A DNA stretch of 45,927 bases from Actinomycetota bacterium. GTDB taxonomy: Bacteria; Actinomycetota; Actinomycetes; Mycobacteriales; Pseudonocardiaceae. Made by a program: the position numbers and the translations under genes. The stretch spans positions 1-45,927 of the forward strand of contig JAJPIR010000040.1 in assembly GCA_021324675.1 (NCBI GenBank). Reading direction: 5' to 3'. The notes below the pieces were generated by a model. That model was not told where the DNA came from. It made no database searches and was given only the letters and a program-made list of their open reading frames with translations. The stretch's first letter is position 1; the number at the start of each line of letters is the position of its first letter. This document shows, in pieces, positions 114 to 38,908 of the stretch.

Positions 114-1148
114 ATGTCTGAAGAGAGCCCAATTCATATCCTCTGGATCAACTGTGGCCTGTCCTGCGATGGGGACTCGGTTGCGCTGACAGCAGCAACG
201 CAACCGAGTATTGAAGAAATTACGCTGGGAGCACTTCCCGGCCTGCCCAAGATCGCAGTGCACTGGCCCCTGATCGATTTCGAATGCGGCCCGGAACAAG
301 GTGCCGACAACTTCATCGAGTGGTTCTGGAAGGCCGACCGGGGCGAGTTGGAACCCTTCGTTCTCGTCTTGGAAGGCTCCATCCCGAACGAGTCAATCAA
401 CGGCGAAGGTTACTTCACCGGTTTCGGAAGGCACCCGGACACCAACCAACCGATCACCATCAATGAATGGATCGACCGGTTGGCGCCTAAGGCGACGATC
501 GTGCTCGCGGCCGGCACCTGCGCATGCTACGGCGGCATCCACGCCATGTCGGGCAACCCGACCGGTGCCATGGGTGTGCCTGACTACCTCGGCTGGGACT
601 GGAAGTCCAAGGCCGGCATTCCGATCGTCTGCGTGCCCGGTTGCCCGGTCCACCCGGACAACATGTCCGAGACGATCCTGTACCTGCTGTACCAGGCCGC
701 CGGCGCCGCGCCGATGATCCCGCTGGACGAGCACCTGCGCCCGCAGTGGCTATACGGCAAGACGGTGCACGAGGGTTGTGACCGGGCCGGCTACTACGAG
801 CAGGGTGAGTTCGCCAAGAGCTACGACTCACCGAAGTGCTTGGTGAAGATCGGCTGCTGGGGCCCGGTGGTGAAGTGCAACGTGCCCAAGCGAGGCTGGA
901 TCAACGGTGTGGGTGGCTGCCCGAACGTGGGTGGTATCTGCATCGGCTGCACCATGCCCGGATTCCCGGACAAGTTCATGCCGTTCATGGATGCGCCTCC
1001 GGGCTCTCTGGTGTCAGGGACCGCGAGCCTGGCCTACGGCTCGGTCATCCGGTCGCTGCGCAACATCACGCTCAAGAAGACCGACAGCGAGCCCAAGTGG
1101 CGTAAGAAGGGCAACCAGCTCTTGACCGGCTACAAGCCGTCCTGGTGA
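114..1148 (+). CDS. hhyS: Group 1h [NiFe] hydrogenase small subunit
   Basis: This is the electron-transfer subunit of an actinobacterial high-affinity uptake hydrogenase, which carries electrons from H2 oxidation through iron-sulfur clusters towards the respiratory chain. The 344-aa sequence closely resembles the M. smegmatis Hyd2/Hhy small subunit as I remember it. There is no N-terminal Tat signal; the protein begins directly with the Ile-Leu-Trp-Ile strand, as in group 1h. The proximal-cluster motif is C18-x2-D21 instead of CxxC, the aspartate-for-cysteine substitution known for this group. The other cluster cysteines lie in the C-terminal third (GCWGPVVKC and GGCPNVGGICIGC). The start follows a GGAG-containing leader. 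The large subunit follows 32 bp later. Assignment is very secure. Confidence 0.96.
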   Translation: MSEESPIHILWINCGLSCDGDSVALTAATQPSIEEITLGALPGLPKIAVHWPLIDFECGPEQGADNFIEWFWKADRGELEPFVLVLEGSIPNESINGEGYFTGFGRHPDTNQPITINEWIDRLAPKATIVLAAGTCACYGGIHAMSGNPTGAMGVPDYLGWDWKSKAGIPIVCVPGCPVHPDNMSETILYLLYQAAGAAPMIPLDEHLRPQWLYGKTVHEGCDRAGYYEQGEFAKSYDSPKCLVKIGCWGPVVKCNVPKRGWINGVGGCPNVGGICIGCTMPGFPDKFMPFMDAPPGSLVSGTASLAYGSVIRSLRNITLKKTDSEPKWRKKGNQLLTGYKPSW

Positions 1149-1180: not shown

Positions 1181-2980
1181 ATGACAACCACAGCAAGGCA
1201 CAGCTCCACCACAGGCCAGCTCACCGAGATGGTCTGGGATCCGGTTACCCGGATCGTCGGTAGCCTTGGCATCTACACCAAGATTGATTTTGCGAACAAG
1301 AGAGTCGCTGAGTGCCACAGCTCGTCCTCGGTGTTCCGCGGCTACTCCATCTTCATGAAGGGCAAGGACCCTCGCGACGCCCACTTCATCACCAGTCGCA
1401 TCTGCGGGATCTGCGGCGACAACCACGCCACCTGTTCGGTTTACAACCAGAACATGGCTTACGGCGTGGTCCCGCCACACCTCGGCGAGTGGTGCATCAA
1501 CCTCGGTGAAGCGGCCGAATACATGTTCGACCACAACATCTTCCAGGAGAACCTGGTCGGGGTCGACTACTGCGAGAAGATGGTCGCCGAGACCAACCCG
1601 GGCGTGCTTGACCAGGCCAACCGCACTGCGGCGCCGAACGAAGAGGCTCACGGATACAAGACCATCGGCGACATCATGCGGGCGCTCAACCCGCTGGCGG
1701 GTGAGTTCTACCGTGAGGCACTGCAGGTCTCCCGCTACACGCGTGAGATGTTCTGCCTCATGGAGGGTCGCCACGTGCACCCCTCCACGCTGTACCCGGG
1801 TGGTATCGGCTGTGTGGCCACCCACCAGCTGTTCACCGACTACTACACCCGCCTCATGCGATACGTGGAGTTCATGAAGCGGGTCGTGCCGCTGCACGAG
1901 GACCTGTTCACCTTCTTCTACGACGCCCTGCCGGGTTACGAAGAAGTTGGTCGGCGCCGGGTGCTGCTGGGTTGCTGGGGCGCTCAGAACGACCCGGAGC
2001 ACTGCGACTTCAACTACCGCAACATGACCAACTGGGGTCGCAAGATGTTCGTCACCCCCGGTGTGGTGGTGGACGGCAAGCTGGTCACCAACGACCTGGT
2101 GAAGATCAACCTCGGGTTGCGGATCCTGCTCGGCCACTCCTACTACGAGGACTGGGAGGGCCAGGAGATCTTCGTCGATCGGGACCCGCTGGGTAACCCG
2201 GTGGACCGGAGGCACCCGTGGAACCAGCACACCATCCCGCGGCCGCAAAAGCGTGACTTCAATGGCCCGTACAGCTGGACCATGTCGCCGCGGTGGTTCG
2301 ACGGCACGGACCACCTTGCCCTGGACACCGGTGGTGGGCCGCTGGCCCGGTTGTGGCCGACGGCACTGTCTGGCCTGGTGGACACCGGCACGGTCAAGGC
2401 CACCGGCAAGAGCATCATCGTCAACCTGCCAAGGACGATGACGAAGCCGGAGGTCTCCTTCGAGTGGAAGATCCCGTACGACAAGCAGGGTAAGCCGCTG
2501 TCGAACGCGATCGAACGCAACCGGGCGCGCAGCTTCTTCCAGGCCTACCAGGCCGCGATGGCGCTGCACTTCGTGGAGAAGGCCCTGGCCGAGGTGCGTG
2601 CTGGTCGCACCAAGACCTGGGAGCCGTTCAAGGTGCCCAAGGAAGCGATCAGCTGCGGGTGGACCGAGGCGGTCCGCGGTGTGCTGTCGCACCACATGGT
2701 GATCCGGGACGGGAAGATCGCCAACTACCACCCGTACCCACCCACTCCGTGGAACGGCAGCGTCCGCGACATCTACGGGACACCGGGCCCCTACGAGGAC
2801 GCCGTGCAGAACACGCCGATCTTCGAGGAGAACCCCCCGGAGAACTTCAAGGGCATCGACATCATGCGGGCCGTACGCAGCTTCGACCCGTGCCTGCCCT
2901 GCGGTGTGCACATGTACCTCGGGAATGGCAAGGAGCTGCAACGCCTGCACACGCCACACTCGTTCACGACTGGTGGCTGA
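1181..2980 (+). CDS. hhyL: Group 1h [NiFe] hydrogenase large subunit (catalytic)
   Basis: This subunit carries the NiFe(CN)2CO active site that splits H2. The 599-aa protein has the N-terminal L1 motif SRICGIC (Cys75, Cys78) and the C-terminal L2 motif DPCLPCGVH (Cys571, Cys574, His577). These four cysteines bind nickel and iron. About 22 residues follow His577, the expected tail removed by the maturation protease encoded downstream. The sequence is nearly collinear with mycobacterial HhyL. A GGAGAAAGG ribosome site precedes the ATG. The next gene starts 4 nt after the stop, so translation is probably coupled. Confidence 0.97.
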   Translation: MTTTARHSSTTGQLTEMVWDPVTRIVGSLGIYTKIDFANKRVAECHSSSSVFRGYSIFMKGKDPRDAHFITSRICGICGDNHATCSVYNQNMAYGVVPPHLGEWCINLGEAAEYMFDHNIFQENLVGVDYCEKMVAETNPGVLDQANRTAAPNEEAHGYKTIGDIMRALNPLAGEFYREALQVSRYTREMFCLMEGRHVHPSTLYPGGIGCVATHQLFTDYYTRLMRYVEFMKRVVPLHEDLFTFFYDALPGYEEVGRRRVLLGCWGAQNDPEHCDFNYRNMTNWGRKMFVTPGVVVDGKLVTNDLVKINLGLRILLGHSYYEDWEGQEIFVDRDPLGNPVDRRHPWNQHTIPRPQKRDFNGPYSWTMSPRWFDGTDHLALDTGGGPLARLWPTALSGLVDTGTVKATGKSIIVNLPRTMTKPEVSFEWKIPYDKQGKPLSNAIERNRARSFFQAYQAAMALHFVEKALAEVRAGRTKTWEPFKVPKEAISCGWTEAVRGVLSHHMVIRDGKIANYHPYPPTPWNGSVRDIYGTPGPYEDAVQNTPIFEENPPENFKGIDIMRAVRSFDPCLPCGVHMYLGNGKELQRLHTPHSFTTGG

Positions 2981-2983
2981 GTC

Positions 2984-3895
2984 GTGCCTGTGAGCAACAC
3001 AACGGATATCCAGGCGATAGGGGAAAGGGTCGAGGCGCTGCTCGCTGAGTTCGCCTCGGCCTCCGACCCCGCGATCGCCGGGCGAGCCGAGGAGCTAGTC
3101 GGCCTGCTCGTCGACTTCTACGGTGCGGGCCTGGCCCGCATCATGGAACTACTCGACAAGCAGGCCGCTGCTCCGCTGCTCGCTGACAAGGCAGTGGCCG
3201 GACTGCTGGTGCTGCACGACCTGCACCCGCAGAGCACCGAGGAACGCGTTCTCGCTGCCCTCGATCGGGTTCGGCCCTACCTCGGTTCGCATGCCGGCGA
3301 CGTCGAGTACCTCGGGCTCGACGATGACGGCACGGTGCGGTTGCGGTTGGCGGGCAGCTGTGACGGCTGCCCGTCCTCCGCGCTCACCGTGAAGATGGCT
3401 ATCGAGAAAGGAATCGAAGACGTCGCCCCCGAGGTCACCAAGGTAGAGGTAGAGGGGATGGTGCCCGAATCGGCTTCGGGCCTGTCCGCGCCCGAGGGGC
3501 GCACCCTGTTGCCACTGGCCCAGGTAAGCAAGCAGCCGGAGACACCCGCGTCGACCTGGGTAGAAATCGACGGGATCGAGAACATCGGTCAAGGCCAGGT
3601 GGTTCCCAAGCTGGTCGCCGACACGGCTGCGGTGGTGTGCAACGTGGCCGGCAGCCTGTACGCCTACGCCGACCGGTGCCCGGCCTGCGGTTCCGGACTG
3701 GCCGGCGGGAAACTCGCGGGCGCTTTGTTGACCTGTCCCGGCTGCACGCAACGTTACGACGTGGTCCGGGCTGGTCGTGGTTGGAGCGACGCCAGCCAGG
3801 CGTCATCGACGGCGGAAGCACACCTGGACCCGCTGCCACTTCTCACCGAGAACGGCGGGGTCCGGATCGCGGTTCCCGCTCAGGCGGTGTCATGA
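2984..3895 (+). CDS. NifU C-terminal domain fused to a Rieske-like domain; hydrogenase Fe-S accessory
   Basis: A 303-aa hydrogenase-operon protein. Residues about 1-80 are helical. Residues about 85-160 form a NifU C-terminal scaffold domain with the cluster pair C126-x2-C129 (SCDGCPSS). Residues about 190-300 look like a Rieske-type ferredoxin domain, but the expected CxH...CxxH ligands are replaced by C232-x2-C235 and C251-x2-C254. By position it corresponds to the Fe-S accessory protein seen beside Hhy- and Huc-type hydrogenases, thought to help electron transfer or cluster supply. The GTG start lies directly after the large-subunit stop; a second GTG 6 nt on is also possible. Its stop overlaps the next ATG. 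Confidence 0.85.
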   Translation: MPVSNTTDIQAIGERVEALLAEFASASDPAIAGRAEELVGLLVDFYGAGLARIMELLDKQAAAPLLADKAVAGLLVLHDLHPQSTEERVLAALDRVRPYLGSHAGDVEYLGLDDDGTVRLRLAGSCDGCPSSALTVKMAIEKGIEDVAPEVTKVEVEGMVPESASGLSAPEGRTLLPLAQVSKQPETPASTWVEIDGIENIGQGQVVPKLVADTAAVVCNVAGSLYAYADRCPACGSGLAGGKLAGALLTCPGCTQRYDVVRAGRGWSDASQASSTAEAHLDPLPLLTENGGVRIAVPAQAVS

Positions 3896-4554
3896 AGGGG
3901 GGGCTGCGGCGCTTCGTAGGAAGCGCCGCTTCCCCACCGCAATCTCCTAGAGATCCCGCAGCAGCTCCGGCCGAACAAGAGGGCGATCGGTGTGAGATGT
4001 GCGCCGTACCGATAGACGACTGGCACGGACACGTGGTTGACATCGAGCACCGCGGTCTGATGTGTACCTGCCGTCCCTGCGCCCTGTTGTTCACCCAAGA
4101 AGGCGCAGGAAGCGGGCGGTACAAAGCAGTTCCCGAACATTACCGTTACGCCGCCGCGGTGCCACTGGCCGAGGCAACGTGGGACTCAATGGAGATTCCG
4201 GTAGCAACAGCGTTCTTTTTCCAAAACAGCGCGCTGGATCGTACCGTCGCGTTCTATCCGAGTCCAGCGGGGGCCACCGAATCGCTGCTGTCCCTGGAAG
4301 CCTGGACGGACCTGCTCGCTGCGATTCCAGAATTCGCTGATCTGCGACCTGATGTCGAAGCGTTGCTGGTGTATAAGGGAGATATCGGGTTCGAGTTCTT
4401 CGCGGTCCCGATCGACGCCTGTTACCAGCTGGTCGGTCTGGTCCGTATGCACTGGCAGGGCTTCGACGGCGGAGAGCAGGCGTGGGCGGAGATCCACAAG
4501 TTCTTCGCCGGTCTGCGGGAGCGCAGCGAACAGGTGGCGGTCACCAATGACTGA
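3892..4554 (+). CDS. Hydrogenase-associated DUF5947-like protein
   Basis: A 220-aa protein of unknown function. The start is the ATG that overlaps the previous stop (ATGA). After a proline- and alanine-rich N-terminus there is a metal-site-like cluster: C34-x2-C37, H45, H47, H53, then C58-x-C60-x2-C63. The rest is an alpha/beta region without further cysteine pairs. I assign DUF5947 from memory of actinobacterial hydrogenase operons; no search was possible. Its place between Fe-S and maturation genes suggests a role in hydrogenase assembly or electron transfer, which is inference. The 3' end overlaps the next gene by 8 nt. Confidence 0.75.
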   Translation: MKGGLRRFVGSAASPPQSPRDPAAAPAEQEGDRCEMCAVPIDDWHGHVVDIEHRGLMCTCRPCALLFTQEGAGSGRYKAVPEHYRYAAAVPLAEATWDSMEIPVATAFFFQNSALDRTVAFYPSPAGATESLLSLEAWTDLLAAIPEFADLRPDVEALLVYKGDIGFEFFAVPIDACYQLVGLVRMHWQGFDGGEQAWAEIHKFFAGLRERSEQVAVTND

Positions 4555-5200
4555 ATTGTCCTTCACCTGCCTTGACGTGCAGCCTGAACGCTACGCCGCG
4601 GCTCCAACGCTGGTGTTCCGGCTGAAGATCAACGTTGCTGCCGAGGAGAAGGTGCGAGCCATCGCCCTGCGGTGTCAGATCCGGGTCGAACCAGGCCGGC
4701 GCAGTTATAAGGACCAAGAAGGCGAGCGACTACTCGAGTTGTTCGGCGGGCGCGAACGCTGGGGCGATTCGCTCAAGCCGTTCCAATTCGCCAACACGTC
4801 GACGACGGTTCCCAGTTTTACCGGTAGCACCGAAGTCGACATTTCCGTGCCATGCAGTTACGACATGGAGGTCACCACAGGCCGATATTTCCATGCACTC
4901 GAGGACGGGGAGGTGCCGTTCATCCTGCTCTTCAGCGGAACGATCTTCGGAGACGGCAAGGACGGCATGTGGATTGAGCAAGTGCCCTGGCACTGCGAAT
5001 GCCGGTACCGGATGCCGGTCGAAAGATGGCGCGAGATGATGGATATTCACTTCCCGAACAGCGGGTGGCTGCGGCTGCGCCGCGACACTATTGACGCGCT
5101 CGCCGAGTTTCGTGCCTCCCGTGCTCTACCCACCTGGGATGACGCCGTCATCGCCGTGCTGGACGCAGCCCGGGAACGCACCGCGGAGGGGAAAACATGA
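4547..5200 (+). CDS. Hydrogenase-associated DUF6084-like protein
   Basis: A 217-aa protein that resembles DUF6084 proteins of actinobacterial hydrogenase operons (family from memory). The N-terminal two thirds look beta-rich, opening LSFTCLDVQPERYAAAP. The C-terminal third is helical with a conserved-looking WHCECRYRMP segment. It has no signal peptide or transmembrane segment. The ATG overlaps the end of the previous gene by 8 nt, and its stop overlaps the next start (ATGA), so all these genes are translationally coupled. Function is unknown; co-occurrence with group 1h hydrogenase is the only clue. Confidence 0.72.
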   Translation: MTELSFTCLDVQPERYAAAPTLVFRLKINVAAEEKVRAIALRCQIRVEPGRRSYKDQEGERLLELFGGRERWGDSLKPFQFANTSTTVPSFTGSTEVDISVPCSYDMEVTTGRYFHALEDGEVPFILLFSGTIFGDGKDGMWIEQVPWHCECRYRMPVERWREMMDIHFPNSGWLRLRRDTIDALAEFRASRALPTWDDAVIAVLDAARERTAEGKT

Positions 5201-6498
5201 CGGCCCCGATGGACATCGCGCGTCAGATCGCCGACGCCGTCCTTTACGAGGGTTACTTGCTCTATCCCTACCGGGCTTCTGCGCGCAAGAATCAAGTCCG
5301 GTGGCAGTGGGGAGTGCTTGTGCCCCCTTCCTATGCCGCCGCCGGGCACGGCGAGCATGCCACCTCCTACAGCGAATGCTTGCTGGAGCCCGGCACTGAC
5401 CCGGTGCTTCACCTCCGCTTGCGGTTCCTGCAACTCCAGCACCGCAGCGGTGGAGAGGGGCCGGTACCCGAGTTCGACGAGGCCGTCGAACACGAGGTTG
5501 ACGCGGTGCTGCCGGTATCAAAGCTGGTCGAGTCCACGCAGGTGGTTCCGGTCGCTATCCGCGGCGGCACGGAGACCACCGACGGCGTCACTCGGGAGCG
5601 CTGGCCGCTAGGCGGCGAGGTGCGGGTGTCTGCGCACGTGCTGGAAGGCCCTTACGGGCTCATGAAGCTGTCGGTTGAGCTGGTCAACACTTCGACGTGG
5701 GCTGACCCGCAGGCAAACCGGAATCTCGCCCTCCGCCACTCACTGATCGCTGCCCACATCGTGCTCGCCGCCACCGACGGGGAGTTCCTCTCCCTGCTCG
5801 ATCCTCCAGAGTGGGCAAAACCAGCAGCGGAAAGCTGCCGTAACGAACGGATCTGGCCGGTGATGGTTGGTGAAGCGGGCAGCCGAAGCGCGCTGCTGAT
5901 CACACCGATCATCCTCTACGACTATCCGCAGATTGCGCCAGAGAGTGCCGGCGAACTGTATGACGGCACCGAGATCGACGAGATCCTCACGCTGCGCACC
6001 ATGACCCTCACCGATGAGGAGAAGGCTGAGGCGCGGGCTACCGACGAGCGAGCCCGCAAGCTCATGGACCGCATCGACTCAATGCCGCCCGAGATGCTCG
6101 ACAAGCTGCATGGCGCCATCCGGTATCTCGGAGAAACTCCCGGCATCCGGAAGGAAGCGGATCCGGTTGAGACGATCACCACTCCGGGAACCCCATGGTG
6201 GGATCCCGGCGCGGACGCCTCAGTAGACCCGGACACCGACAGCGTGACGATAGCCGGGGTCGAGGTTGCCAAGGGTAGCAAGGTTCTGCTCAAACCCGGA
6301 TTGCGGCGGTCCGATGCGCAGGACATGTTCCTCGAAGGTCGTACGGCCACCGTCGAAGCAGTGTTGCTCGACGTCGACGGCAATACTCACGTGGCGGTCA
6401 CCGTTGACGATGATCCCGGCGCGGAGATCTCGGCCGCGCATGGACGGTTTCGCTACTTCGACCCGGAAGAACTTGCGCCGCTCGGAGCCCAGTCATGA
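5197..6498 (+). CDS. Conserved hydrogenase-operon protein of unknown function
   Basis: A 433-aa cytosolic-looking protein without signal peptide, membrane segment or clustered cysteines. I see a beta-rich N-terminal region (about 1-250), a charged helical linker (about 260-315, TDEEKAEARATDERARKL), and a C-terminal small beta domain (about 330-425). The last begins with a PWWDPGADAS segment and has two valine-rich strands and an RFRYFDPEEL ending. The domain order suggests a scaffold or assembly factor, but I recognise no catalytic motif. It overlaps both neighbours by 4 nt, so it is made together with the DUF proteins and the maturation protease. Confidence 0.75.
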   Translation: MTAPMDIARQIADAVLYEGYLLYPYRASARKNQVRWQWGVLVPPSYAAAGHGEHATSYSECLLEPGTDPVLHLRLRFLQLQHRSGGEGPVPEFDEAVEHEVDAVLPVSKLVESTQVVPVAIRGGTETTDGVTRERWPLGGEVRVSAHVLEGPYGLMKLSVELVNTSTWADPQANRNLALRHSLIAAHIVLAATDGEFLSLLDPPEWAKPAAESCRNERIWPVMVGEAGSRSALLITPIILYDYPQIAPESAGELYDGTEIDEILTLRTMTLTDEEKAEARATDERARKLMDRIDSMPPEMLDKLHGAIRYLGETPGIRKEADPVETITTPGTPWWDPGADASVDPDTDSVTIAGVEVAKGSKVLLKPGLRRSDAQDMFLEGRTATVEAVLLDVDGNTHVAVTVDDDPGAEISAAHGRFRYFDPEELAPLGAQS

Positions 6499-7061
6499 CC
6501 GGCACCGTGACCACCATGGTGGCGGGCATCGGCAACATCTTTCTCAGCGATGACGCGTTCGGTTGCGAGCTGGCTCGCCGGCTCAGCACCGAGACGCTGC
6601 CCGACGGTGTGCGGGTGGTTGACTACGGGATCCGTGGCATGCACCTGGCCTACGATCTCATGGATATGGCTCCGGCCACTACGATCCTGCTCGACGCCGT
6701 GTCCCGCGGCGGCGAGCCTGGAACGCTTTATGTGCTCGAGATCGGGCACGGTGACGTGCCCGGCATCGAGCCCTCGGCTGTCGACGCGCACGGGATGACT
6801 CCGGACGCGGTACTCGCATTGCTGGAAAACCTCGGCGGCAACGCGGGGCGGATCCTATTGGTCGGTTGTGAACCGGCCAGCACCGAGGATGGTATCGGGT
6901 TGTCCACAACCGTTTCCGCAGCCGTCGACAGGGCTGTCGGGGTGGTTTTGGATCTGCTCACCGACAAGAAAGGAAGTGAAGCGAATGTTCCGTCTGGTGC
7001 GTCGGCTGGTCTTCTGGGGAACAGTGATCGGCCTGGCCAGTGTAGCGGTACAGGTCTCTAA
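6495..7061 (+). CDS. [NiFe] hydrogenase maturation endopeptidase (HyaD/HybD family)
   Basis: This protease removes the C-terminal tail of the large subunit after nickel insertion. The N-terminal motif VAGIGNIFLSDDAFG matches the family signature; Asp20, Asp67 and His99 occupy the positions of the metal ligands. The functional domain ends near residue 160. The last about 25 residues are glycine- and serine-rich and unlike the family. They are encoded in the stretch that also encodes the next gene in another frame, so they are probably a by-product of the overlap. The gene overlaps the previous stop by 4 nt and lies just before hypC, consistent with a hydrogenase-specific protease. Confidence 0.92.
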   Translation: MTGTVTTMVAGIGNIFLSDDAFGCELARRLSTETLPDGVRVVDYGIRGMHLAYDLMDMAPATTILLDAVSRGGEPGTLYVLEIGHGDVPGIEPSAVDAHGMTPDAVLALLENLGGNAGRILLVGCEPASTEDGIGLSTTVSAAVDRAVGVVLDLLTDKKGSEANVPSGASAGLLGNSDRPGQCSGTGL

Positions 7062-7126: not shown

Positions 7127-7408
7127 ATGTGCCTCGGCATCCCGGGCGAGGTGATCGAAATCCTGCCCGACCAGCCTGATCTGGCCAAGGTCGACGTCAG
7201 TGGGGTCAAGCGCGCGATCAATATCGGTCTGTTGACCGATGACCCGCCTGTTCCCGGCGATTGGGTTTTGATTCACGTCGGATTCGCGCTATCCAAGATC
7301 GACGAGCAAGAGGCCAAGGCAGCGATGGACTTCCTGATAGGCATCGGTCAGGCCTATGAGGATGAGATCGCCGCCCTGCTCGAATCGCGGATTGACGAAA
7401 GGCAGTGA
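7127..7408 (+). CDS. hypC: Hydrogenase assembly chaperone HypC
   Basis: HypC carries the Fe(CN)2CO unit with HypD and escorts it to the immature large subunit. The 93-aa protein starts with the diagnostic MCLGIPGEV; Cys2 is the metal-binding and chaperone residue. A GGAGG site precedes the ATG by 8-9 nt. A beta-barrel core is followed by an acidic helical tail. The stop overlaps the GTG of hypD. It belongs to the long hydrogenase operon, so it probably serves this hydrogenase specifically. Confidence 0.95.
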   Translation: MCLGIPGEVIEILPDQPDLAKVDVSGVKRAINIGLLTDDPPVPGDWVLIHVGFALSKIDEQEAKAAMDFLIGIGQAYEDEIAALLESRIDERQ

Positions 7409-8553
7409 GCACTATGCGATTCGTCGATGAGTACCGGGATGCCGAAAAGGCCCGTGCGCTCGCCGCTAAGATCGCGGCGTTGTGCGAGCCGGGTCGGCAT
7501 TACAAGTTCATGGAAGTCTGTGGCGGGCACACGCATACCATTTACAAGCATGGGCTGGAGGACTACCTCCCGGAGTCCATCAGCCTGGTGCATGGGCCAG
7601 GCTGCCCGGTGTGCGTGATCCCGATGGGTCGGGTGGACGACGCGATCGCGTTGGCCGAGCAGCCTGATGTGATCATGACGTCCTTCGGCGACATGATGCG
7701 GGTGCCCGGCGGGCGGGGGTCGTTCTTCGACTCCTCGGCCGCCGGCACCGACATCCGGATGGTCTACTCCCCGCTCGACGCGTTGAAGATCGCCCGGCAG
7801 AACCCCGACAAGCACGTGGTCTTCATGGCGATCGGGTTCGAGACCACCGCGCCATCCACCGCGATGACCGTGCTGCGAGCCCAAGCGGAGGGCATCAAGA
7901 ACTTTTCGATCTTCTGCAACCACGTCACGATCATTCCGGCGATCAAAGCTATCTTGGACTCCCCCGACCTGCGGTTGGACGGATTCCTCGGCCCAGGCCA
8001 CGTGTCGACCGTCATTGGCTGCCGGCCGTATGAATTCATCGCCGCTGCGTACGGCAAGCCGCTGGTCACTGCTGGCTTCGAACCGTTGGACATCCTGCAG
8101 TCGGTCTACATGCTCCTCCAGCAGCTGGCCGAGGGCCGATGCGAGGTGGAAAACCAGTACTCCCGGGTAGTGCCGTGGGATGGGAATACGGTGGCGCTGC
8201 GGGCGGTGGCCGAGGTGATGGAGTTGCGTCCCTACTTTGAGTGGCGCGGACTTGGCTTCATTTCCCACTCTGCGTTGCAAGTCCGCGAGAAGTACGCGGC
8301 CTACGACGCCGAGCGGCAATTCACCCTACCCGGCGTCCGGGTCGCCGACCCGAAAGCCTGCCAGTGCGGCGAGGTGCTCAAGGGGGTCTTGAAGCCGTGG
8401 GAATGCAAGGTGTTCGGTACCGCGTGCACGCCGGAGACACCGATTGGCACCTGCATGGTTTCCTCTGAGGGAGCCTGCGCGGCGTACTACAACTTCGGCC
8501 GGTTCAGCCGCCAGCGGGTCCAGGAAGTCAGTATTGAAAGCAGCAGGGCATGA
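7405..8553 (+). CDS. hypD: Hydrogenase Fe-cyanide maturation protein HypD
   Basis: HypD is the Fe-S scaffold on which the Fe(CN)2CO cofactor is built with HypC and HypE. The 382-aa protein has the family motifs CGGHTHTIYKHG (Cys39), GPGCPVCV (Cys67, Cys70), GFETTAPSTA and DGFLGPGHVS. The C-terminal cysteine-rich part (CQCGEVLKG, KPWECKVFG, GTCMVSSEGAC) holds the [4Fe-4S] cluster. The GTG overlapping the hypC stop is taken as start; the ATG 9 nt on would remove only three residues. The stop overlaps the hypE ATG. Confidence 0.96.
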   Translation: MSTMRFVDEYRDAEKARALAAKIAALCEPGRHYKFMEVCGGHTHTIYKHGLEDYLPESISLVHGPGCPVCVIPMGRVDDAIALAEQPDVIMTSFGDMMRVPGGRGSFFDSSAAGTDIRMVYSPLDALKIARQNPDKHVVFMAIGFETTAPSTAMTVLRAQAEGIKNFSIFCNHVTIIPAIKAILDSPDLRLDGFLGPGHVSTVIGCRPYEFIAAAYGKPLVTAGFEPLDILQSVYMLLQQLAEGRCEVENQYSRVVPWDGNTVALRAVAEVMELRPYFEWRGLGFISHSALQVREKYAAYDAERQFTLPGVRVADPKACQCGEVLKGVLKPWECKVFGTACTPETPIGTCMVSSEGACAAYYNFGRFSRQRVQEVSIESSRA

Positions 8554-9740
8554 CTCACCAGAACACCAGCCAGCAGCACGCTGACTGGGCGGAGGCGGCC
8601 GTCGCCGAGCACAGCAAACGCGACGATGACGCTGGTTACTCCGCGCATAAACCCGGGACTGAGCACGCCGGGCGGGAGCAGCTGGTGCTGCAACGCATCG
8701 AACGCGCTCGCAAGGCGCGTCCCCGGGTGCGGGAAAAGCTCATCACCCTTGCGCACGGTGCCGGTGGTAAGGCCACCCAATCACTCATTGAGGCAATCTT
8801 CCTGGACGCCTTTCGCAATCCGTTGCTAGCACCGCTCGAAGACGCCGCGACACTCACCGCTGGTGATGCCCGGCTTGCCTTCACGACGGATTCCTATGTG
8901 GTGTCTCCGTTGTTCTTCCCTGGAGGGAACATCGGAGACCTCGCGGTCAACGGCACGGTCAACGACCTGGCCGTCTCCGGGGCACGACCGGCCCATCTAT
9001 CGGCCGGGTTCATCCTGGAGGAGGGGTTCCCGGTTGAGGATCTGCGGCGGATTGTCCAATCGATGGCGGCGGCTGCGGCCGCCGCTGGAGTGTCCATCGT
9101 CACCGGCGATACGAAGGTTGTCCAGCGAGGAAAGGCGGACGGCTGCTACATCAACACTGCCGGGGTCGGGTTGATCCCTGATGGCTTGACACTGGGTGTG
9201 TCCACAGCACGCCCGGGCGACGTGGTGATCGTGTCGGGTCCGGTGGGCGACCATGGCATCACCGTGATGCTGGAGCGCGGGGAACTGGACCTCGATGCTG
9301 AGCTGGTCTCCGACACCGCACCGGTGCACGAGCTGGTCCGGGGACTGCTCGACGCGGTTGGCCCGGATGTCCGGGCCATGCGCGACGCGACTCGGGGTGG
9401 CGTCGCGACGATCCTCAACGAGGTCGCCACGGCCGCCGGGGTAGCCGTGGTGGTCGATGAGGACTCGGTTCCCGTGCGCCCTGAGGTCCGCGGAGCATGC
9501 GAGATCCTGGGCATCGACCCGCTCTACGTGGCTTGCGAGGGGCGCATCGTGGCGATCGTCGATCCCGCCGCAGCAGACGCCGCGGTCGCGGCGTTGCAGG
9601 CCCATCCTCTTGGCACCGCAGCAACGGCGGTCGGCCGTATCATTGAGGATCCGCCTGGGCTGGTCATGCTCAAGACCGGCTTCGGCGGCACTCGAATTAT
9701 TGATCTACTTGTCGGCGATCCATTGCCCCGGATTTGCTGA
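8550..9740 (+). CDS. hypE: Hydrogenase thiocyanate-forming dehydratase HypE
   Basis: HypE converts the carbamoyl group transferred by HypF to its C-terminal cysteine into thiocyanate, the source of the cyanide ligands. The 396-aa protein ends in PRIC with the reactive cysteine last. The AIR-synthase-like core runs from about residue 60 (LITLAHGAGGKATQSLIEAIF), with an ATP-binding TGDTKVV segment. The first about 55 residues are a hydrophilic extension (QQHADWAEAAVAEHSKRDDD...) that typical 330-350 aa HypE proteins lack. The ATG overlaps the hypD TGA. Confidence 0.95.
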   Translation: MTHQNTSQQHADWAEAAVAEHSKRDDDAGYSAHKPGTEHAGREQLVLQRIERARKARPRVREKLITLAHGAGGKATQSLIEAIFLDAFRNPLLAPLEDAATLTAGDARLAFTTDSYVVSPLFFPGGNIGDLAVNGTVNDLAVSGARPAHLSAGFILEEGFPVEDLRRIVQSMAAAAAAAGVSIVTGDTKVVQRGKADGCYINTAGVGLIPDGLTLGVSTARPGDVVIVSGPVGDHGITVMLERGELDLDAELVSDTAPVHELVRGLLDAVGPDVRAMRDATRGGVATILNEVATAAGVAVVVDEDSVPVRPEVRGACEILGIDPLYVACEGRIVAIVDPAAADAAVAALQAHPLGTAATAVGRIIEDPPGLVMLKTGFGGTRIIDLLVGDPLPRIC

Positions 9741-9759
9741 CCACTTGCCGGGAGGTCCG

Positions 9760-10065
9760 CTGAATCGAACTGAATTGATTGCCGAGATCGTGGCCGATTG
9801 GCCCGAACCCGGTGAGGTTGTGTACATCGAACGTCGGGGCGAAAACTACGCGATTAAACGCACCGGCGACGATGGTGTGCTGCCCGTACCGTCGCCGGAG
9901 GAGTCCCTTCCGGATGCCTGGATTTACTACGGCGGGTGGCAGGAGTACCACCGCAACGACTTGTCGGCATTCTTCGATGACCTGTTCGCCGAGATGGACG
10001 CGGCGGCCGGGGGGCATGACCGTTGCCGGTGGTCGCCGGATGACCCTTGGCCGCACGCCCACTAG
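9760..10065 (+). CDS. Small acidic hydrogenase-operon protein, apparent CTG start
   Basis: A 101-aa unrecognised protein rich in Trp, Tyr, Glu and Asp, with an alpha/beta-like pattern (NRTELIAEIVADWPEPGEVVYIERRGENYAIKR, shown here only as its opening region near residues 2-33). The frame is open and coding-like from hypE onward, but no ATG or GTG occurs near the 5' end. A strong GGGAGG site at 9750-9755 lies 4 nt before CTG 9760, which I take as start. TTG 9775 is the alternative but has poor spacing. It starts 20 bp after hypE and probably ends the operon's core. Function is unknown. Confidence 0.7.
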   Translation: MNRTELIAEIVADWPEPGEVVYIERRGENYAIKRTGDDGVLPVPSPEESLPDAWIYYGGWQEYHRNDLSAFFDDLFAEMDAAAGGHDRCRWSPDDPWPHAH

Positions 10066-10198: not shown

Positions 10199-11269
10199 AT
10201 GGTTTACCGCCTCCACACGTCCGATCGGACGGCATTCAAGCGTTGCCGCCGGGAATGGGATTTCAGTTCGGCCAACCGGCAAAACCTCGAACCCACTGCC
10301 CAATCTGGCTCGATCGATCTCGAGAAGGCGCTGCGCGATGCGCTCGCCGTTTACTACTTCCCTGGAATGTGGGAATGGGATCGGGCCATCGTGCGGCCGC
10401 TGGTGCACCAGGCACTGGATCGCTCCGTGCGTGGCCAGGCACAGCAAGCCACCGACGATGAGTCGCGGCAGGAATTGCTGGACCGGGGTCATGCACTGCT
10501 CGACGCCTACGCCGCGTGGGCTCCGACCGTCGATCAGTTCACCCCCATTCGCGTGAACACCGACTTCGAGGTGAACATTCCGGACCCGGCGCAGCCCGGC
10601 AGTAACCTACTGACTCCCGCCGGCGACGAGGTCAGGTTCAGCGGCCGGGTCGACCTGCTGGCCATCGACTCCGATGACGCCTACTGGGTCGTTCAGCATC
10701 GGCTGGTCACCGATGGTTGGGCGGATCACGATATCCTCCAACTCGATGAAACGACCATCGCGTGGGCGTGGGCGTGGCCCCAGTTTTATCTGGGAATGCA
10801 AATCTCAGGCACGGTTTATAACGAAGTCCGTGCGGACGCCCAAGTGCTGAGTAACCCGGTCCCGGTGCCGGAAGGGCGCCCGCCAGTGGGTCATCGGCGC
10901 ATGTATGCCCGCAGCGGCACGGTTTCTGGTGAACGGCTGCATGCCGAAGGCACGGATTCATTCCGGCGCACCCGGATCCGGCGCAGCGAGTCCGAACTCA
11001 TGGCCGCCAGCGCGGATTTGGCCGCCGAGGTCGTTGCCGCTACAAGTCCTGATCTTCAAATTTACCCGAGCCCAGCACCGGAGGTGTGCTCGCGCTGCTT
11101 GTATCGCACTCCCTGCCTGATCGTGAACCAGGGCCAGGATCCGGCCGCTGAGCTGTCCACGTCCTACCGGCAGCGGCCGCTGGACACCGTCCAAGAGGGC
11201 CGGCTCGGTGGTGTCACCTGGTCGATGAACCGCGGCGCCGCTCCACCCCCCTGGGCCCGCCAGTCCTGA
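10199..11269 (+). CDS. Cas4/AddB-like PD-(D/E)XK-fold Fe-S protein with altered nuclease site
   Basis: A 356-aa protein built like Cas4/AddB/RecB-type Fe-S nucleases. It has an N-terminal cysteine in FKRCRREWDF (Cys16) and a C-terminal CSRCLYRTPC (Cys297-x2-Cys300-x5-Cys306), the standard four-cysteine [4Fe-4S] arrangement. The first acidic residue is kept (GRVD, Asp152). The second part of the motif, normally D/E-x-K as in VVDYK, reads VVQHR (Gln166, Arg168). Nuclease activity is therefore doubtful. It lies 133 bp downstream of the hydrogenase operon on the same strand and converges on hypF. A role in Fe-S or hydrogenase biology is inference. Confidence 0.8.
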   Translation: MVYRLHTSDRTAFKRCRREWDFSSANRQNLEPTAQSGSIDLEKALRDALAVYYFPGMWEWDRAIVRPLVHQALDRSVRGQAQQATDDESRQELLDRGHALLDAYAAWAPTVDQFTPIRVNTDFEVNIPDPAQPGSNLLTPAGDEVRFSGRVDLLAIDSDDAYWVVQHRLVTDGWADHDILQLDETTIAWAWAWPQFYLGMQISGTVYNEVRADAQVLSNPVPVPEGRPPVGHRRMYARSGTVSGERLHAEGTDSFRRTRIRRSESELMAASADLAAEVVAATSPDLQIYPSPAPEVCSRCLYRTPCLIVNQGQDPAAELSTSYRQRPLDTVQEGRLGGVTWSMNRGAAPPPWARQS

Positions 11270-11295: not shown

Positions 11296-11357
11296 GCAGT
11301 CTGGATGCAGACTGCTGCCTACCGGGGCCTGATTACCACGTTCTGCATCCAGACTGC
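11296..11357. terminator. Convergent inverted repeat between Cas4-like gene and hypF
   Basis: A perfect 16-bp inverted repeat (11296-11311 and 11342-11357) lies between the converging genes; its right arm is the 3' end of the hypF coding sequence. The left arm also pairs locally (GCAGTCTG GATG CAGACTGC, 11296-11315), so two alternative stems exist. There is no long T-run. A bidirectional terminator is the simplest reading. Confidence 0.55.
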
Positions 11358-13600
11358 GCGGTTGCAGCGGCGACGGCGACTTGTCCGAGGCTGATACCGG
11401 CATCGTTGGGCGGCACGCGGCAATGGGTGAGGACGCGGAAACCCGCGTTCTCCAGGGTGGCCACGGTGCGCTCGAGCAGCAGCACGTTCTGGAAGACACC
11501 ACCGGACAGGGCCGCGACGTTGACGCCGGTGATATCTCGCAACATCAGGCAGACGCGCGCGATGGTATCGGCGAGACCGTGGTGAAAGCGGGTGGCGATC
11601 GCCTCCGGGGCCACGCCCGCTCGGAGATCGGCCATCACGGCCCGTACCAGGTCTGCGCCGTGGACCTGCAACGGGGAGCCCTCGCTGATGGTGGCGGAGT
11701 AGCTGCCGAGTTCGGTGAGGTCGGCTCGCTGCTCGAGTTCCACTGCGGCCTGGCCCTCGTAGTTGATCGAATCGCGGATCCCCAGAATGGCGGCGACCGC
11801 ATCGAACAGGCGTCCGGCACTTGACGTCATCGGGGAGTTCACTTTCCGGGCAGCCATCGCCAGCACCGCGTCCCAGTGCTTAGCGTTGCGCTGGATCAGG
11901 TCCTGCGGCGCGGCTGAACCGAGGTACGCCGCGGCCATCCGCCAGGGTTGTCGGATGGCCGCGGCGCCGCCGGGCAGCGGGACCGGAACGAGATGCGCCA
12001 TGCGCTGGAATCCCGTGAGGTCAGCCAGCAAGAATTCGCCACCCCACAAGGTGCCATCGCTGCCATAGCCCGTCCCGTCGAACGCTACTCCCAGCACCGG
12101 GCCAGCATCACCGTTATCGGCCAGGCAGGAGGCGATGTGCGCGTGGTGATGCTGCACACCCACCAGCTCCACATCAGCCAGGTCGACAGCGTATTTGGTG
12201 GACAGGTACTCCGGATGTAGATCGTGCGCCACTATTTCCGGCGTTATATCGAATAGACGGCGGAAATGCTCAACGCCCTCGGTGAACGAACGAAGTGTCT
12301 CGTAGTTCTCCAGATCGCCGATGTGGTGGGACATGAAGGCATGCCGGCCACGAGCCAGGCAGAAGGTGCTTTTCAGCTCGGCGCCGCAGCCCAGAATCGG
12401 GCAGGAGACCGGTTGGGCCAGGGTCAATGGCTCCGGCGCGTAGCCACGGGACCGGCGCACGGGCAGTTCAGCGCCGCGGAACACCCGGACTACCGAGTCA
12501 TCGGTGCGCATGTGAATGGCCCGGTTGTGAGTCAGGTAGGCATCTGCAATTCCGGTCAACCGCTGCCGGGCATCGTCGTCCTGGTAGGCGATGGGCTCGT
12601 CGGAGATGTTGCCGCTGGTGAGCACGATCGGCGCGGCGATCTCGCGTAGCAGCAGGTGATGCAGCGGTGTGTAGGGCAACATCAGGCCCAGATTGCGGTT
12701 GCCAGGTGCGAGGGCGGGAGCCACGGGCGCGTCGGGGCGCCTGGGCAGCAGCACGACCGGTCGCCGCCGCCCGGACAGCAGCCGCTCCCCCTCCGGATCG
12801 ATCTCGCAAAGCTGCCGCGCACCGTCCAGATCGGCCACCATCACCGCGAATGGTTTGTCTTCGCGGTGCTTACGCGCCCGCAACTCCGCGGTCGCGGCGG
12901 CATCAGCGGCCAGCGCTGCGACGTGGAAGCCACCAAGCCCCTTGACTGCAAGCACCGCACCAGCTCTCAGCAATTCCGCAGCCGCCGCGATTGGCTCACC
13001 GGGCAACTCGGCACCGCTGGCGTCCATTAGCCGGAGCCTGGGTCCGCAGGCCGGGCAGCACACTGGCTGCGCGTGAAAGCGCCGGTCGGCAGGATCGTGG
13101 TATTCACGGGAACAGGCCGGACACATCTCAAACGGAGCCATCGTGGTCAATGGCCGGTCGTAGGGCACGTCCTGCACGATCGTGAATCGCGGACCGCAAT
13201 TGGTGCAGTTGGTAAACGGGTACTCGAAGCGGCGGTCGGCAGGATCAGCTATCTCGCGCAGGCAATCGTCGCACGTGGCGGTATCCGCAGAGATCAAGGT
13301 ATCGCGCCGGCCAGCGGCGTGGCTGGACACAATGTGAAAACCCGGCTCCCCGGTGGGAGCCAGGGAGTGGGTCCGCACATGCTCGATGACCGCTAGCGGC
13401 GGCGCCTGTGCCGGTAACGTGGCGAGGAACTCGCTGACGGCCTGCTCGGCCCCCTCGATCTCCATGAACACGCCAGCGGTGTCGTTGCCCACGCGACCGG
13501 ACAGCCCAAAACGGTTCGCAAGGCCGTGCACATACGGCCGAAATCCCACGCCCTGCACGACGCCTTCGACCCGCACCCCAACCCGGATACTCTGCTGCAC
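11333..13600 (-). CDS. hypF: Carbamoyltransferase HypF
   Basis: HypF makes the cyanide precursor by carbamoylating the HypE C-terminal cysteine with carbamoyl phosphate and ATP. Domains in order: acylphosphatase (about 5-90, VEGVVQGVGFRPYVHG); two zinc-finger units (about 105-185, CDDC...CTNC and CPAC...CCPAC); a YrdC-like domain (about 200-390); and a Kae1-like domain (about 400-755, HHHAHIASCL). I chose GTG 13600 because GGGAG lies 9 nt upstream; an in-frame ATG 36 nt further upstream is possible. It diverges from hypA and converges on the Cas4-like gene. Confidence 0.95.
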   Translation of the reverse strand: MQQSIRVGVRVEGVVQGVGFRPYVHGLANRFGLSGRVGNDTAGVFMEIEGAEQAVSEFLATLPAQAPPLAVIEHVRTHSLAPTGEPGFHIVSSHAAGRRDTLISADTATCDDCLREIADPADRRFEYPFTNCTNCGPRFTIVQDVPYDRPLTTMAPFEMCPACSREYHDPADRRFHAQPVCCPACGPRLRLMDASGAELPGEPIAAAAELLRAGAVLAVKGLGGFHVAALAADAAATAELRARKHREDKPFAVMVADLDGARQLCEIDPEGERLLSGRRRPVVLLPRRPDAPVAPALAPGNRNLGLMLPYTPLHHLLLREIAAPIVLTSGNISDEPIAYQDDDARQRLTGIADAYLTHNRAIHMRTDDSVVRVFRGAELPVRRSRGYAPEPLTLAQPVSCPILGCGAELKSTFCLARGRHAFMSHHIGDLENYETLRSFTEGVEHFRRLFDITPEIVAHDLHPEYLSTKYAVDLADVELVGVQHHHAHIASCLADNGDAGPVLGVAFDGTGYGSDGTLWGGEFLLADLTGFQRMAHLVPVPLPGGAAAIRQPWRMAAAYLGSAAPQDLIQRNAKHWDAVLAMAARKVNSPMTSSAGRLFDAVAAILGIRDSINYEGQAAVELEQRADLTELGSYSATISEGSPLQVHGADLVRAVMADLRAGVAPEAIATRFHHGLADTIARVCLMLRDITGVNVAALSGGVFQNVLLLERTVATLENAGFRVLTHCRVPPNDAGISLGQVAVAAATAQSGCRTW

Positions 13601-13674
13601 AGAACGATTCTCCCGCCCTTGACAAGATCCCTGCACGGGGACTGGACTGGGTGCACAACCGAGGAGGGGTGCAC
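13601..13674. promoter_or_regulatory. Divergent hypF/hypAB promoter region
   Basis: This 74-bp gap separates the divergent starts of hypF (minus) and hypA (plus). It contains a consensus -35 hexamer TTGACA at 13619-13624 pointing towards hypA, with only a weak -10 candidate (TGGACT) 18 nt later. Both ribosome-binding sites also lie here. Transcription start sites are not determined. Confidence 0.4.
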
Positions 13675-14007
13675 TTGCACGAAATGGCGATCACGCAGAG
13701 CGTGGTCCAGGCGGTGTGCGATCGAATGGGTGATGCTCAGATACGCCGAGTCTGCCTGGAGATCGGCACGCTGTCTGGTGTAGTGGCTGATTCTGTCCGG
13801 TTCTGCTTCGATCTTATTACCGAGGGCACCACGCTTGAAGGAGCGTCATTGGAGATCGTCCAGCCCGCGGGAAGAGCGTGCTGCCGGGACTGCGGCGCAG
13901 AATTCGTGCTTAACGATCTACTCGTGCTGTGCGAGTGCGGCAGCGCGAACCGCGAACTCCTTGCGGGCGAAGAACTCAAAATCCGGGAAGTTGAGGTAAT
14001 GGCCTGA
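13675..14007 (+). CDS. hypA: Hydrogenase nickel-insertion protein HypA (TTG start)
   Basis: HypA delivers nickel to the large subunit with HypB. The start is TTG because it restores the invariant N-terminus MHEM, in which Met1, His2 and Glu3 take part in nickel binding; GAGGAGGGG lies 5 nt upstream. The 110-aa protein has a zinc site with C70-x2-C73 and a second pair C86-x-C88, shorter than the usual CxxC. The stop and the hypB ATG overlap by one base (TGATG). It is divergent from hypF. Confidence 0.94.
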   Translation: MHEMAITQSVVQAVCDRMGDAQIRRVCLEIGTLSGVVADSVRFCFDLITEGTTLEGASLEIVQPAGRACCRDCGAEFVLNDLLVLCECGSANRELLAGEELKIREVEVMA

Positions 14008-14765
14008 TGTGTGCAACGTGTGGCTGCTCCGGCGACACTATTCTTGAACCTCACGAGCATGACCACGAGCACCAGCACGAGCACGGGCACGTGCATGGGC
14101 ACAGCCGCCACTCGCAGACCCGGACGGTCACCCTTGAGCAGGCGGTGCTGGCGCGCAATGACGCGCTTGCCGAAGGCAACCGTAAGTGGTTAGCCGAGCG
14201 CAGCATTCTCGCCGTGAACTTGATGAGCTCACCCGGAGCAGGCAAGACCACATTGCTTGAGCGCACCATCCGAGAATTGGGATCCGAGCTCCGGGTGTCG
14301 GTCGTTGAAGGTGACCAGGAGACAGTTCTGGACGCCGACCGGATCCGCGCCACCGGCGCCCCAGCGATTCAGATCAACACCGGCTCCGGGTGCCATCTCG
14401 ACGCAAAGATGCTTTTCAGTGGGCTCCAAACGCTCGATCCACCGGAGGGTTCAGTGGTGCTGATCGAGAATGTAGGAAACTTGGTCTGCCCCGCTTTGTT
14501 CGACCTGGGCGAACAGTCCCGCGTCGTGATCACTTCAGTCACCGAAGGGGCGGAGAAACCGCGGAAGTACCCGCAGATGTTCCGCGCCGCTGATCTGGTG
14601 CTGCTGAACAAGGTCGACCTGTTGCCGTACGTGAAGTTCGATATCGAAGATTTTCTGGACGGTGCCCGGCGAGCGAATCCGGACGTCGAGGTGCTCCAAC
14701 TGTCCGCCACAACCGGTGAGGGTGTCGCCGACTGGTACGGCTGGTTGCGCGCCCGCCTGCCCTGA
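14007..14765 (+). CDS. hypB: Nickel-inserting GTPase HypB
   Basis: HypB is the GTPase that drives nickel loading of the large subunit. The N-terminus has a CATCGC metal motif (residues 2-7) and a histidine-rich stretch with ten His between residues 16 and 35, which can store nickel. The G domain shows GAGKTT (77-82), a GSGCH dimer and metal segment, ENVGNLVCP, and NKVDLL. The 252-aa length is normal for His-rich HypB. It is coupled to hypA by the one-base stop/start overlap and converges on the pspC-type gene. Confidence 0.96.
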   Translation: MCATCGCSGDTILEPHEHDHEHQHEHGHVHGHSRHSQTRTVTLEQAVLARNDALAEGNRKWLAERSILAVNLMSSPGAGKTTLLERTIRELGSELRVSVVEGDQETVLDADRIRATGAPAIQINTGSGCHLDAKMLFSGLQTLDPPEGSVVLIENVGNLVCPALFDLGEQSRVVITSVTEGAEKPRKYPQMFRAADLVLLNKVDLLPYVKFDIEDFLDGARRANPDVEVLQLSATTGEGVADWYGWLRARLP

Positions 14766-37990: not shown

Positions 37991-38908
37991 ATGACCGAGA
38001 CCCTGGCTGGCGAGCAGCACACCACCAGCGCCGTTGCCCGCAGGCGACCGGCGCTGTCGCCGTCGCGAGCGGCTGACTTCAAGCAGTGCCCGCTGCTGTA
38101 CCGCTTCCGGGTGGTCGACCGGTTACCCGAGAAGCCGAGCAGGTCGCAGGTTCGCGGCACGGTGGTGCACGCCGTCCTGGAACGGCTTTTCGCGCTGCCC
38201 GCGCACCGGCGCGATCCCGCAACCGGGCGTGCGCTCGTCGCTCCGGCCTGGGATGACGTACTGGCGGCCAGCCCGGAGCTGGCCGAACTATTCGCTGGCT
38301 CGGAGGACCCGGAACACGCGGAATGGCTCGACTCGGCGCGCACGCTTGTCGATGGGTACTTCGCACTGGAAGACCCACGATCAGTTCAACCGGAGGCTTG
38401 CGAATTGCTGGTTGAGGCGGAGCTGAGCACCGGCGATGTCGATGACGGTGAAGCCCTGCTGCTCCGCGGATACATCGACCGGCTCGATGTGGCTACCACC
38501 GGTGAGATCCGGGTGGTGGACTACAAGACCGGCGCCGCGCCGCGGGATGTGTTCGAGGCCAAGGCCTTGTTCCAGATGAAGTTCTACGCGCTGGCCCTGC
38601 TGCGGCTTCGCGGGGTGGTACCGCGCCAGTTGCGGCTGTTGTACCTGGCTGATAGGCAAGCCTTGACCTACACCCCGGACGAGGCCGAACTGATCCGCTT
38701 CGAACGCACTCTCGGCGCAATCTGGTCGGCTATCCGCCGCGCCGCTCGCAGCGGCGATTTCCGTCCCAATCCCAGCCGGATGTGCGGCTGGTGCGATCAC
38801 AAGGCATGCTGCCCGGCGTTCGGCGGCAGTCCACCGCCCTACCCTGGCTGGCCAGACTCCTCCAGCGCCGGCGGCGAGTCCCCCGTCTCCCGGCATGGAG
38901 ACATATAG
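37991..38908 (+). CDS. RecB-family PD-(D/E)XK exonuclease with Fe-S cluster
   Basis: A 305-aa nuclease of the Cas4/AddB type. Cys33 (FKQCPLLYRFR) and C-terminal Cys265-x2-Cys268-x5-Cys274 hold the [4Fe-4S] cluster. The active site is intact: GTVVHAVLE, GYIDRLD (Asp163) and VVDYKTG (Asp177, Lys179). It corresponds to Rv2119. The ATG is 7 nt after TACTCT, so it is probably leaderless. It diverges from trmI and converges on hisG. It is the intact counterpart to the altered protein at 10199. Confidence 0.9.
   Translation: MTETLAGEQHTTSAVARRRPALSPSRAADFKQCPLLYRFRVVDRLPEKPSRSQVRGTVVHAVLERLFALPAHRRDPATGRALVAPAWDDVLAASPELAELFAGSEDPEHAEWLDSARTLVDGYFALEDPRSVQPEACELLVEAELSTGDVDDGEALLLRGYIDRLDVATTGEIRVVDYKTGAAPRDVFEAKALFQMKFYALALLRLRGVVPRQLRLLYLADRQALTYTPDEAELIRFERTLGAIWSAIRRAARSGDFRPNPSRMCGWCDHKACCPAFGGSPPPYPGWPDSSSAGGESPVSRHGDI

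Follow-up and report, generated by a model that had tools for sequence, protein, structure and literature searches.

Genes and features at the locus

The window, by which we mean the whole stretch of 45,927 nucleotides analysed here, belongs to a draft genome (G000); those of its close relatives that have names are MAGs of Pseudonocardiales and Pseudonocardiaceae. The features needed in what follows are these:

114..1148, + strand: hhyS, hydrogenase small subunit (PF14720, PF01058)
1181..2980, + strand: hhyL, hydrogenase large subunit (family match)
2984..3895, + strand: NifU-Rieske protein (family match), which we take to be of the HhyE type
3892..4554, + strand: DUF5947 protein (family match; start read from the sequence)
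4547..5200, + strand: DUF6084 protein (family match; start read from the sequence)
5197..6498, + strand: conserved 433-aa protein of the Hhy operon (locus comparison)
6495..7061, + strand: hydrogenase maturation protease (Pfam/NCBIfam)
7127..9740, + strand: presumably hypC, hypD and hypE (named from the sequence)
About 9760..10065, + strand: small102, the partner gene, 101 aa, with an apparent CTG start and a C-terminal DRCRW..D.PWP motif (homologue comparison)
10199..11269, + strand: degenerate PD-(D/E)xK (phrog_1218 / Cas4-like) protein, 356 aa (open ORF, profile matches)
10244..10246, + strand: codon of C16, first predicted cluster ligand (kept in 34/34 bacterial rows)
10652..10654, + strand: codon of D152, retained motif II aspartate (A, P or E in 6/36 bacterial rows)
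10694..10702, + strand: codons of Q166-H167-R168, replacing D/E-H-K (alignment to relatives)
11087..11116, + strand: C297 to C306, C-x2-C-x5-C (kept in 36/36 bacterial rows)
11333..13636, - strand: presumably hypF, convergent (named from the sequence)
13684..14765, + strand: presumably hypA and hypB (named from the sequence)
37991..38908, + strand: intact RecB/Cas4-like nuclease gene (PDDEXK_1, E 2.9e-39; V-V-D-Y-K and cysteines), the control of the original prediction

Pfam and NCBIfam identify the products of hhyS and hhyL as NiFe hydrogenase subunits; from the gene context and from the label given in the original prediction, we take them to be those of an Hhy (group 1h) [NiFe]-hydrogenase. 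It is probably with these genes that a soil bacterium oxidises hydrogen present in trace amounts. The gene at 10199..11269 stands between small102 and the convergent hypF, in line with hypE and downstream of it. Its frame is open and its dN/dS against nine homologues is 0.13-0.22, by which a decaying pseudogene was ruled out: the gene is under purifying selection.

The 356-aa protein has four cysteines in all (C16, C297, C300 and C306), in exactly the C...C-x2-C-x5-C layout that had been predicted, and from these the four-cysteine Fe-S site of Cas4 is predicted in it. The active site D ... (D/E)xK is not intact: the motif stretch reads V-V-Q166-H167-R168, and the reading of Q-H-R in place of D/E-x-K was borne out when the protein was aligned on the E-H-K of phage enzymes. 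The protein passes the Pfam model PDDEXK_1 (PF12705) narrowly, with 23.4 bits against a cut-off of 22 (E 6.5e-5, residues 68-165). It had no match at E 0.1 in NCBIfam, the cas4 model included, nor among the PADLOC models at the same limit, Cas4 models included; on the latter result, membership of a CRISPR or defence system was ruled out. Within the family the Pfam match is better for the members at L050 and L033 than for the window protein, whereas at E 0.1 Pfam gave nothing for two A-type members (L046 and L053).

Phage relatives

The 356-aa protein matches the exonuclease profile phrog_1218 with an E-value of 2.3e-21, and a tblastn search of phage records with it gave six matches, one in a Weizmannia phage and the others in five Bacillus phages, which cover 90% of the protein at 25-26% identity. 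When the profile of the bacterial family was compared with the enzyme of Bacillus phage BSP7, hhalign gave a probability of 99.9% (E 2.5e-31, 320 columns) and placed Q-H-R on E-H-K. The alignment of the bacterial family to the phage enzyme is secure, and the phage exonucleases of phrog_1218 are the nearest active-looking relatives that we found. With the BSP7 enzyme as query, 104 phage records were matched, 40 of them listed; we picked 12 relatives by eye so as to have a diverse set. In every one of the 12 we find H46, D152, D or E166, H167, K168, Q185 and the four cysteines. Phage rows stand without a cysteine in column 297 of our count because nine of the 12 have C-x3-C, shifted by one, the cysteine itself being present in each.

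These PHROG 1218 enzymes (of Bacillus phage BSP7 and of Gordonia, Rhodococcus, Nocardia and Streptomyces phages) are homologous to the window protein over most of its length and share the four-cysteine site with it, those of BSP7 and Youna2 being 24-28% identical to it; of the set H, D, D/E-H-K, Q, which the 12 phage proteins keep, the window protein keeps D152 and the middle H167. It has, unlike the 12 phage proteins, a YYFPGMW segment and a C-terminal tail. A long branch separates the phage rows from the bacterial rows in the tree, and for this reason we claim no direction of transfer. A search of viral contigs gave two weak loci, which were left out of the analysis, and no match for the phage query.

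The original prediction had used the RecB-like gene at 37991 as an internal control, with the same cysteines and an intact D-Y-K. Those features are indeed present; the comparison itself had to be dropped, since hhalign found no significant alignment of that protein to the family profile (3.4% probability), and the phage homologues make a better control. The protein encoded at 37991..38908 does match phrog_1218 (E 2.6e-19), but it matches phrog_69 better (E 2.6e-32).

Searches of PDB sequences with the 356-aa protein and with the bacterial profile gave no match. When the phage rows were included in the profile, the only solved chains at E <=1 were four UvrD/Rep-type helicases, with a weak best E of 0.0098; we take these chains to be AdnAB. 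An AlphaFold2 model built from 14 alignment rows has an unusably low confidence (mean pLDDT 43.9, pTM 0.31); for what such a model is worth, its order of helices and strands at 87-212 fits the expected alpha-beta-beta-beta-alpha-beta core.

Conservation of the cysteines and of the catalytic residues

The bacterial alignment has 37 rows, two of which are pieces of one broken gene. The label A-type is given to rows (22 in all) with a link to hydrogenase genes or small102, and to rows that the tree groups with these. In the tree calculated without the phage rows and without D_L052, the A-type rows stand together on one side of a modestly supported branch (65/79); in the tree with phages the A-type grouping is not resolved.

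Each of the four ligand cysteines is present in every bacterial row counted, C16 in 34 and C297, C300 and C306 in 36 each. We estimated roughly the chance that four random columns would all be invariant: it is 3e-4 in the A-type rows and 3e-5 in all bacterial rows. The catalytic positions behave differently. At position 168 lysine is found in 0/36 bacterial rows (R in 30, Q in 4, L in 2) as against 12/12 phage rows; position 166 has Q and E in 11 rows each, then R (4 rows), D (3), V, T and I (2 each) and K (1); D152 persists in 30 of the 36, the other six having P, A or E. Between 166 and 168 only H167 is invariant, and besides it there are arginines that do not vary in the alignment. Within the A-type rows, Q or L stands at 168 in 6/22, one of Q, R, K, V and T at 166 in 19/22, and P or A at 152 in 3/22; more generally H46, D152, D/E166 and Q185 are all variable there.

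As support, the original prediction had named the conservation of Q-x-R, or of another non-catalytic set, together with the cysteines in homologues next to the hydrogenase. Q-x-R itself is not conserved in this way. All ten full-length rows that we checked from the window's genus and its sister locus L028 read Q-H-R, at a synonymous divergence that is not small (dS from the window above 1 in eight of nine comparisons), and Q166 is fixed nowhere else; two hydrogenase-linked homologues read D-H-R. The variation at 166 in the bacterial rows rules out Q-x-R as a new conserved signature. A hydrogenase-linked homologue with an intact D/E-x-K, which would have counted against the original prediction, was looked for and found at none of the 16 linked loci.

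The replacement of lysine by arginine calls for some caution. The ratio K/(K+R) is 0.05 in the 356-aa protein, the second lowest among 33 genes of the window, whose mean is 0.21; the intact nuclease of the same window retains its catalytic lysine. In a lysine-poor proteome such as this, K to R was ruled out as a sufficient proof of inactivity. Since a lysine-poor proteome makes this change weak evidence when taken alone, our argument for loss of catalysis rests on the whole set of lost residues. On that set, canonical catalysis has very probably been lost in the window protein, and for the A-type proteins together the statement that the cluster site was kept and cleavage lost is well supported at the level of sequence. 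This half of the original prediction, that selection kept the cluster and not DNA cleavage, therefore stands for the ligand cysteines and the catalytic set of the A-type rows. Relatives away from any hydrogenase also have R at 168, with the same cysteines kept, so that the lysine loss seems to be older than the hydrogenase link.

The genomes of the window's genus hold a second member of the family, paralogue B, which reads E-H-R; all nine of its rows retain H46, D152 and Q185. We do not call this paralogue dead, because at the five catalytic positions it departs from the phage set by the change of K to R alone. The A-type gene is found in 10/11 genomes of the genus and the paralogue in 11/11.

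The partner gene and the C-terminal tail

Directly upstream of the gene at 10199..11269 lies small102, which the original prediction had left unmentioned. Its product has no match in Pfam. Near its C-terminus DRCRW and PWP are invariant in 16 rows. At 9757-9765 the apparent CTG start comes shortly after a GGAGGT stretch; the start codon is CTG in the nine genus and sister loci that we checked, and ATG or GTG in five more distant relatives.

The gene small102 adjoins the A-type gene in 17/20 assessable loci, the three where it was not found being L030, L081 and L082; L029 and L083, cut by contig ends, were left out of this count. It follows the A-type gene at L053 instead of preceding it. In the phylum sample it was found in four genomes out of 396, and all four also have an A-type gene; it was looked for without success in G073 and G088, where the family is represented by no more than fragments at the ends of contigs.

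All 16 hydrogenase-linked proteins, and 2/6 unlinked A-type proteins, have the C-terminal tail W[SG][MF].RGA.PP. It was not found in the two paralogues whose sequence extends that far. The tail could be a docking motif.

Association with the hydrogenase

Linkage to hhy or hyp genes is observed at 16 of the 22 A-type loci: ten in the window's genus, L028, L030, L046 (on a plasmid of M. intracellulare), L047, L050 and L080. The six A-type loci that do not adjoin hydrogenase genes are L053, L056, L079, L081, L082 and L083, and five of these six lie in genomes that have hhyL.

In the 22 genomes that carry the family (including one with an unclassified copy, G055, and two with fragments, G073 and G088), hhyL was found in 18. 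The four without an hhyL match (G005, G009, G049 and G247) are all fragmented drafts, and in G005, G009 and G247 the family gene lies beside hyp genes despite the absence of an hhyL match. One genome of the window's genus (G007) has the paralogue, with neither the A-type gene nor hhyL detected.

In the phylum sample hhyL is found in 38/396 genomes at 64% identity or more, and a family copy was detected in 5 of these 38. In the order sample hhyL is found in 59/298 genomes (64 matches less 5 genomes at only about 40% identity), and 7/8 carriers of the family have it. Once the query genome is removed, hhyL occurs in 4/5 carriers against 37/395 genomes of the phylum sample and in 6/7 carriers against 58/297 genomes of the order sample, with hypergeometric p-values of 3.1e-4 and 2.6e-4 that ignore relatedness. 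The distribution of the family is patchy: 1/66 genomes in the class of G262, 1/3 in that of G073 and 2/2 in the family of G150. Single absences of the family are uncertain, because in each genome no more than five or six top-ranking candidates were scored.

We compared the hhyL regions of 14 more genomes, eight with no detected copy of the family and six carriers with the copy on another contig. As far as the contigs and the fetched stretches reach, the Hhy core genes are the same with or without a family copy; some of the regions lacked a match to one core gene or another, as L088 did for the protease and L090 for DUF5947. Hence we regard the family module as an add-on. This shared operon core, together with the 33 of 38 hhyL genomes in which no copy was detected, means that the family is not needed for Hhy in general. 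The tie to the hydrogenase is likely but optional; for the window protein itself we consider a functional tie to Hhy quite probable.

Possible functions

Our leading, still tentative explanation is that of a pseudonuclease with a predicted structural metal cluster, recruited together with small102 as an optional accessory module of Hhy. The window protein would share ancestry with the phage Cas4-type exonucleases of phrog_1218, and would have lost most of the PD-(D/E)xK active site while keeping the four-cysteine site. This site would most likely hold a cluster stapling the N and C termini of the fold, an idea that we draw from the precedent of AddB and Cas4, whose cluster is described in PMC3466216 as important for integrity or stability. 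In the same source, every Cys-to-Ala change in the Cas4 Sso0001 gave insoluble protein. By analogy, the cluster of the window protein may be purely structural. The metal bound at the four cysteines, predicted to be an Fe-S cluster, might also be zinc: iron is uncertain there because DUF3799, a related structure, has zinc at the equivalent cysteines (PMC3466216).

Some actinobacteria would then have recruited the protein and small102 as an optional Hhy accessory module, acting through protein contacts, as a scaffold or chaperone in the maturation or assembly of the enzyme. Such a role is favoured by the position of the linked genes among hyp genes (hypE, hypF, hypA, hypB); we put it forward as a possibility only. 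With similar reserve, one may picture a phage-type Cas4 exonuclease domesticated in actinobacteria, which lost catalysis, kept its metal-cluster staple and, with a small partner dedicated to it, took on a lineage-specific role in building, protecting or tuning the enzyme scavenging atmospheric H2.

Among known systems, Cas4 of CRISPR and solo-Cas4 share with the window protein the cysteine layout and, judged by sequence family, the RecB-type fold class; their family models do not match it and their catalytic motif is not found in it. The nuclease domains of AddB and AdnAB are likewise PD-(D/E)xK domains with an Fe-S staple, and the weakly matched solved chains are UvrD/Rep-type helicases; AddB and AdnAB are large helicase-nucleases, and the window protein has no helicase. 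As described in PMC5704561, the Cas4-like nucleocapsid protein of TTV1 is a nuclease with a lost activity and a new role, and so offers a precedent for exaptation, but it is a virus structural protein, unlike ours.

Several other functions were weighed against the accessory module. The dead nuclease could still bind DNA, the state of its cluster controlling the hydrogenase genes. The nuclease ancestry, the invariant arginines and H167, and the divergent placement beside hydrogenase genes at L046 and L080, an arrangement common for regulators, all speak for such a redox sensor. We nevertheless hold it to be unlikely: no helix-turn-helix or other regulator domain was matched in Pfam or NCBIfam, the window gene lies in line with hypE and downstream of it, and the protein and its partner are acidic (pI 5.3 and 4.4), though this last point is weakened by the fact that 11/12 phage enzymes are acidic too.

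The module may also have some other task and merely spread with hydrogenase islands. This would account for the patchy distribution, for the plasmid location in M. intracellulare, for the unlinked A-type loci and for the paralogues away from hydrogenase genes. Hitchhiking on a single island accounts poorly, however, for the presence of hhyL in the genomes of five of the six unlinked A-type loci, and we rate this alternative a little below the sensor.

A role of the cluster as an electron carrier that donates to or accepts from the hydrogenase, as invariant cysteines encoded within a hydrogenase operon might suggest, is improbable: the same cysteines occur in relatives with no hydrogenase linkage, the AddB/Cas4 cluster serves integrity or stability (PMC3466216, as above), and the operon already has a NifU-Rieske protein; in M. 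smegmatis, Hhy activity depends on HhyE, a putative Fe-S protein that is NifU-like (PMC6883350). Equally improbable is that the protein is still a nuclease in which arginine or some other residue stands in for the lysine, for which the frequent D152 and the paralogue that keeps H46, D152, E166 and Q185 could be invoked, and against which the A-type substitutions at 168, 166 and 152 weigh.

If the accessory-module explanation is right, a DNA-processing enzyme has been reused in energy metabolism, from a bacterial Cas4-like branch that retains the ligand cysteines without the catalytic set, and a two-gene module is to be added to the parts list of Hhy, of which the neighbours DUF5947 and DUF6084 are themselves without known function in Pfam. 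The link to the hydrogenase is testable, as carriers and non-carriers of the same hydrogenase both exist. Judged by their titles and abstract openings, none of the papers listed in a survey covering few subscription journals describes a gene of this kind in a hydrogenase cluster; searches by term gave no match to "nuclease" in PMC6883350 and PMC4767420, nor to "hydrogenase" in PMC5704561.

Other loci of the family

In the window genome the E-H-R paralogue (L018, G000:C208:57100-58089) has an in-frame TAG right after the first cysteine of the C-terminal cysteine motif. The relatives aligned to it are open at this position, and the TAG is either a sequencing error or a real loss. No hydrogenase gene was matched in the paralogue stretches of the genus loci inspected. 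At these loci another gene comes after the paralogue; in L033 (L033:9947-11763) this second gene belongs to the endonuclease/exonuclease/phosphatase family (PF03372).

The draft genomes G150 and G247 have three family members each, in unlike neighbourhoods (loci including L048, L051, L049 and L052); L049 and L052 lie near what we take to be an rlmN-like gene and a DNA methylase-like gene. Finally, the record of the M. intracellulare plasmid labels the product of L046:13120-14175 as HypE; this product matches HhyS with 77% identity, and for this reason the label looks wrong.
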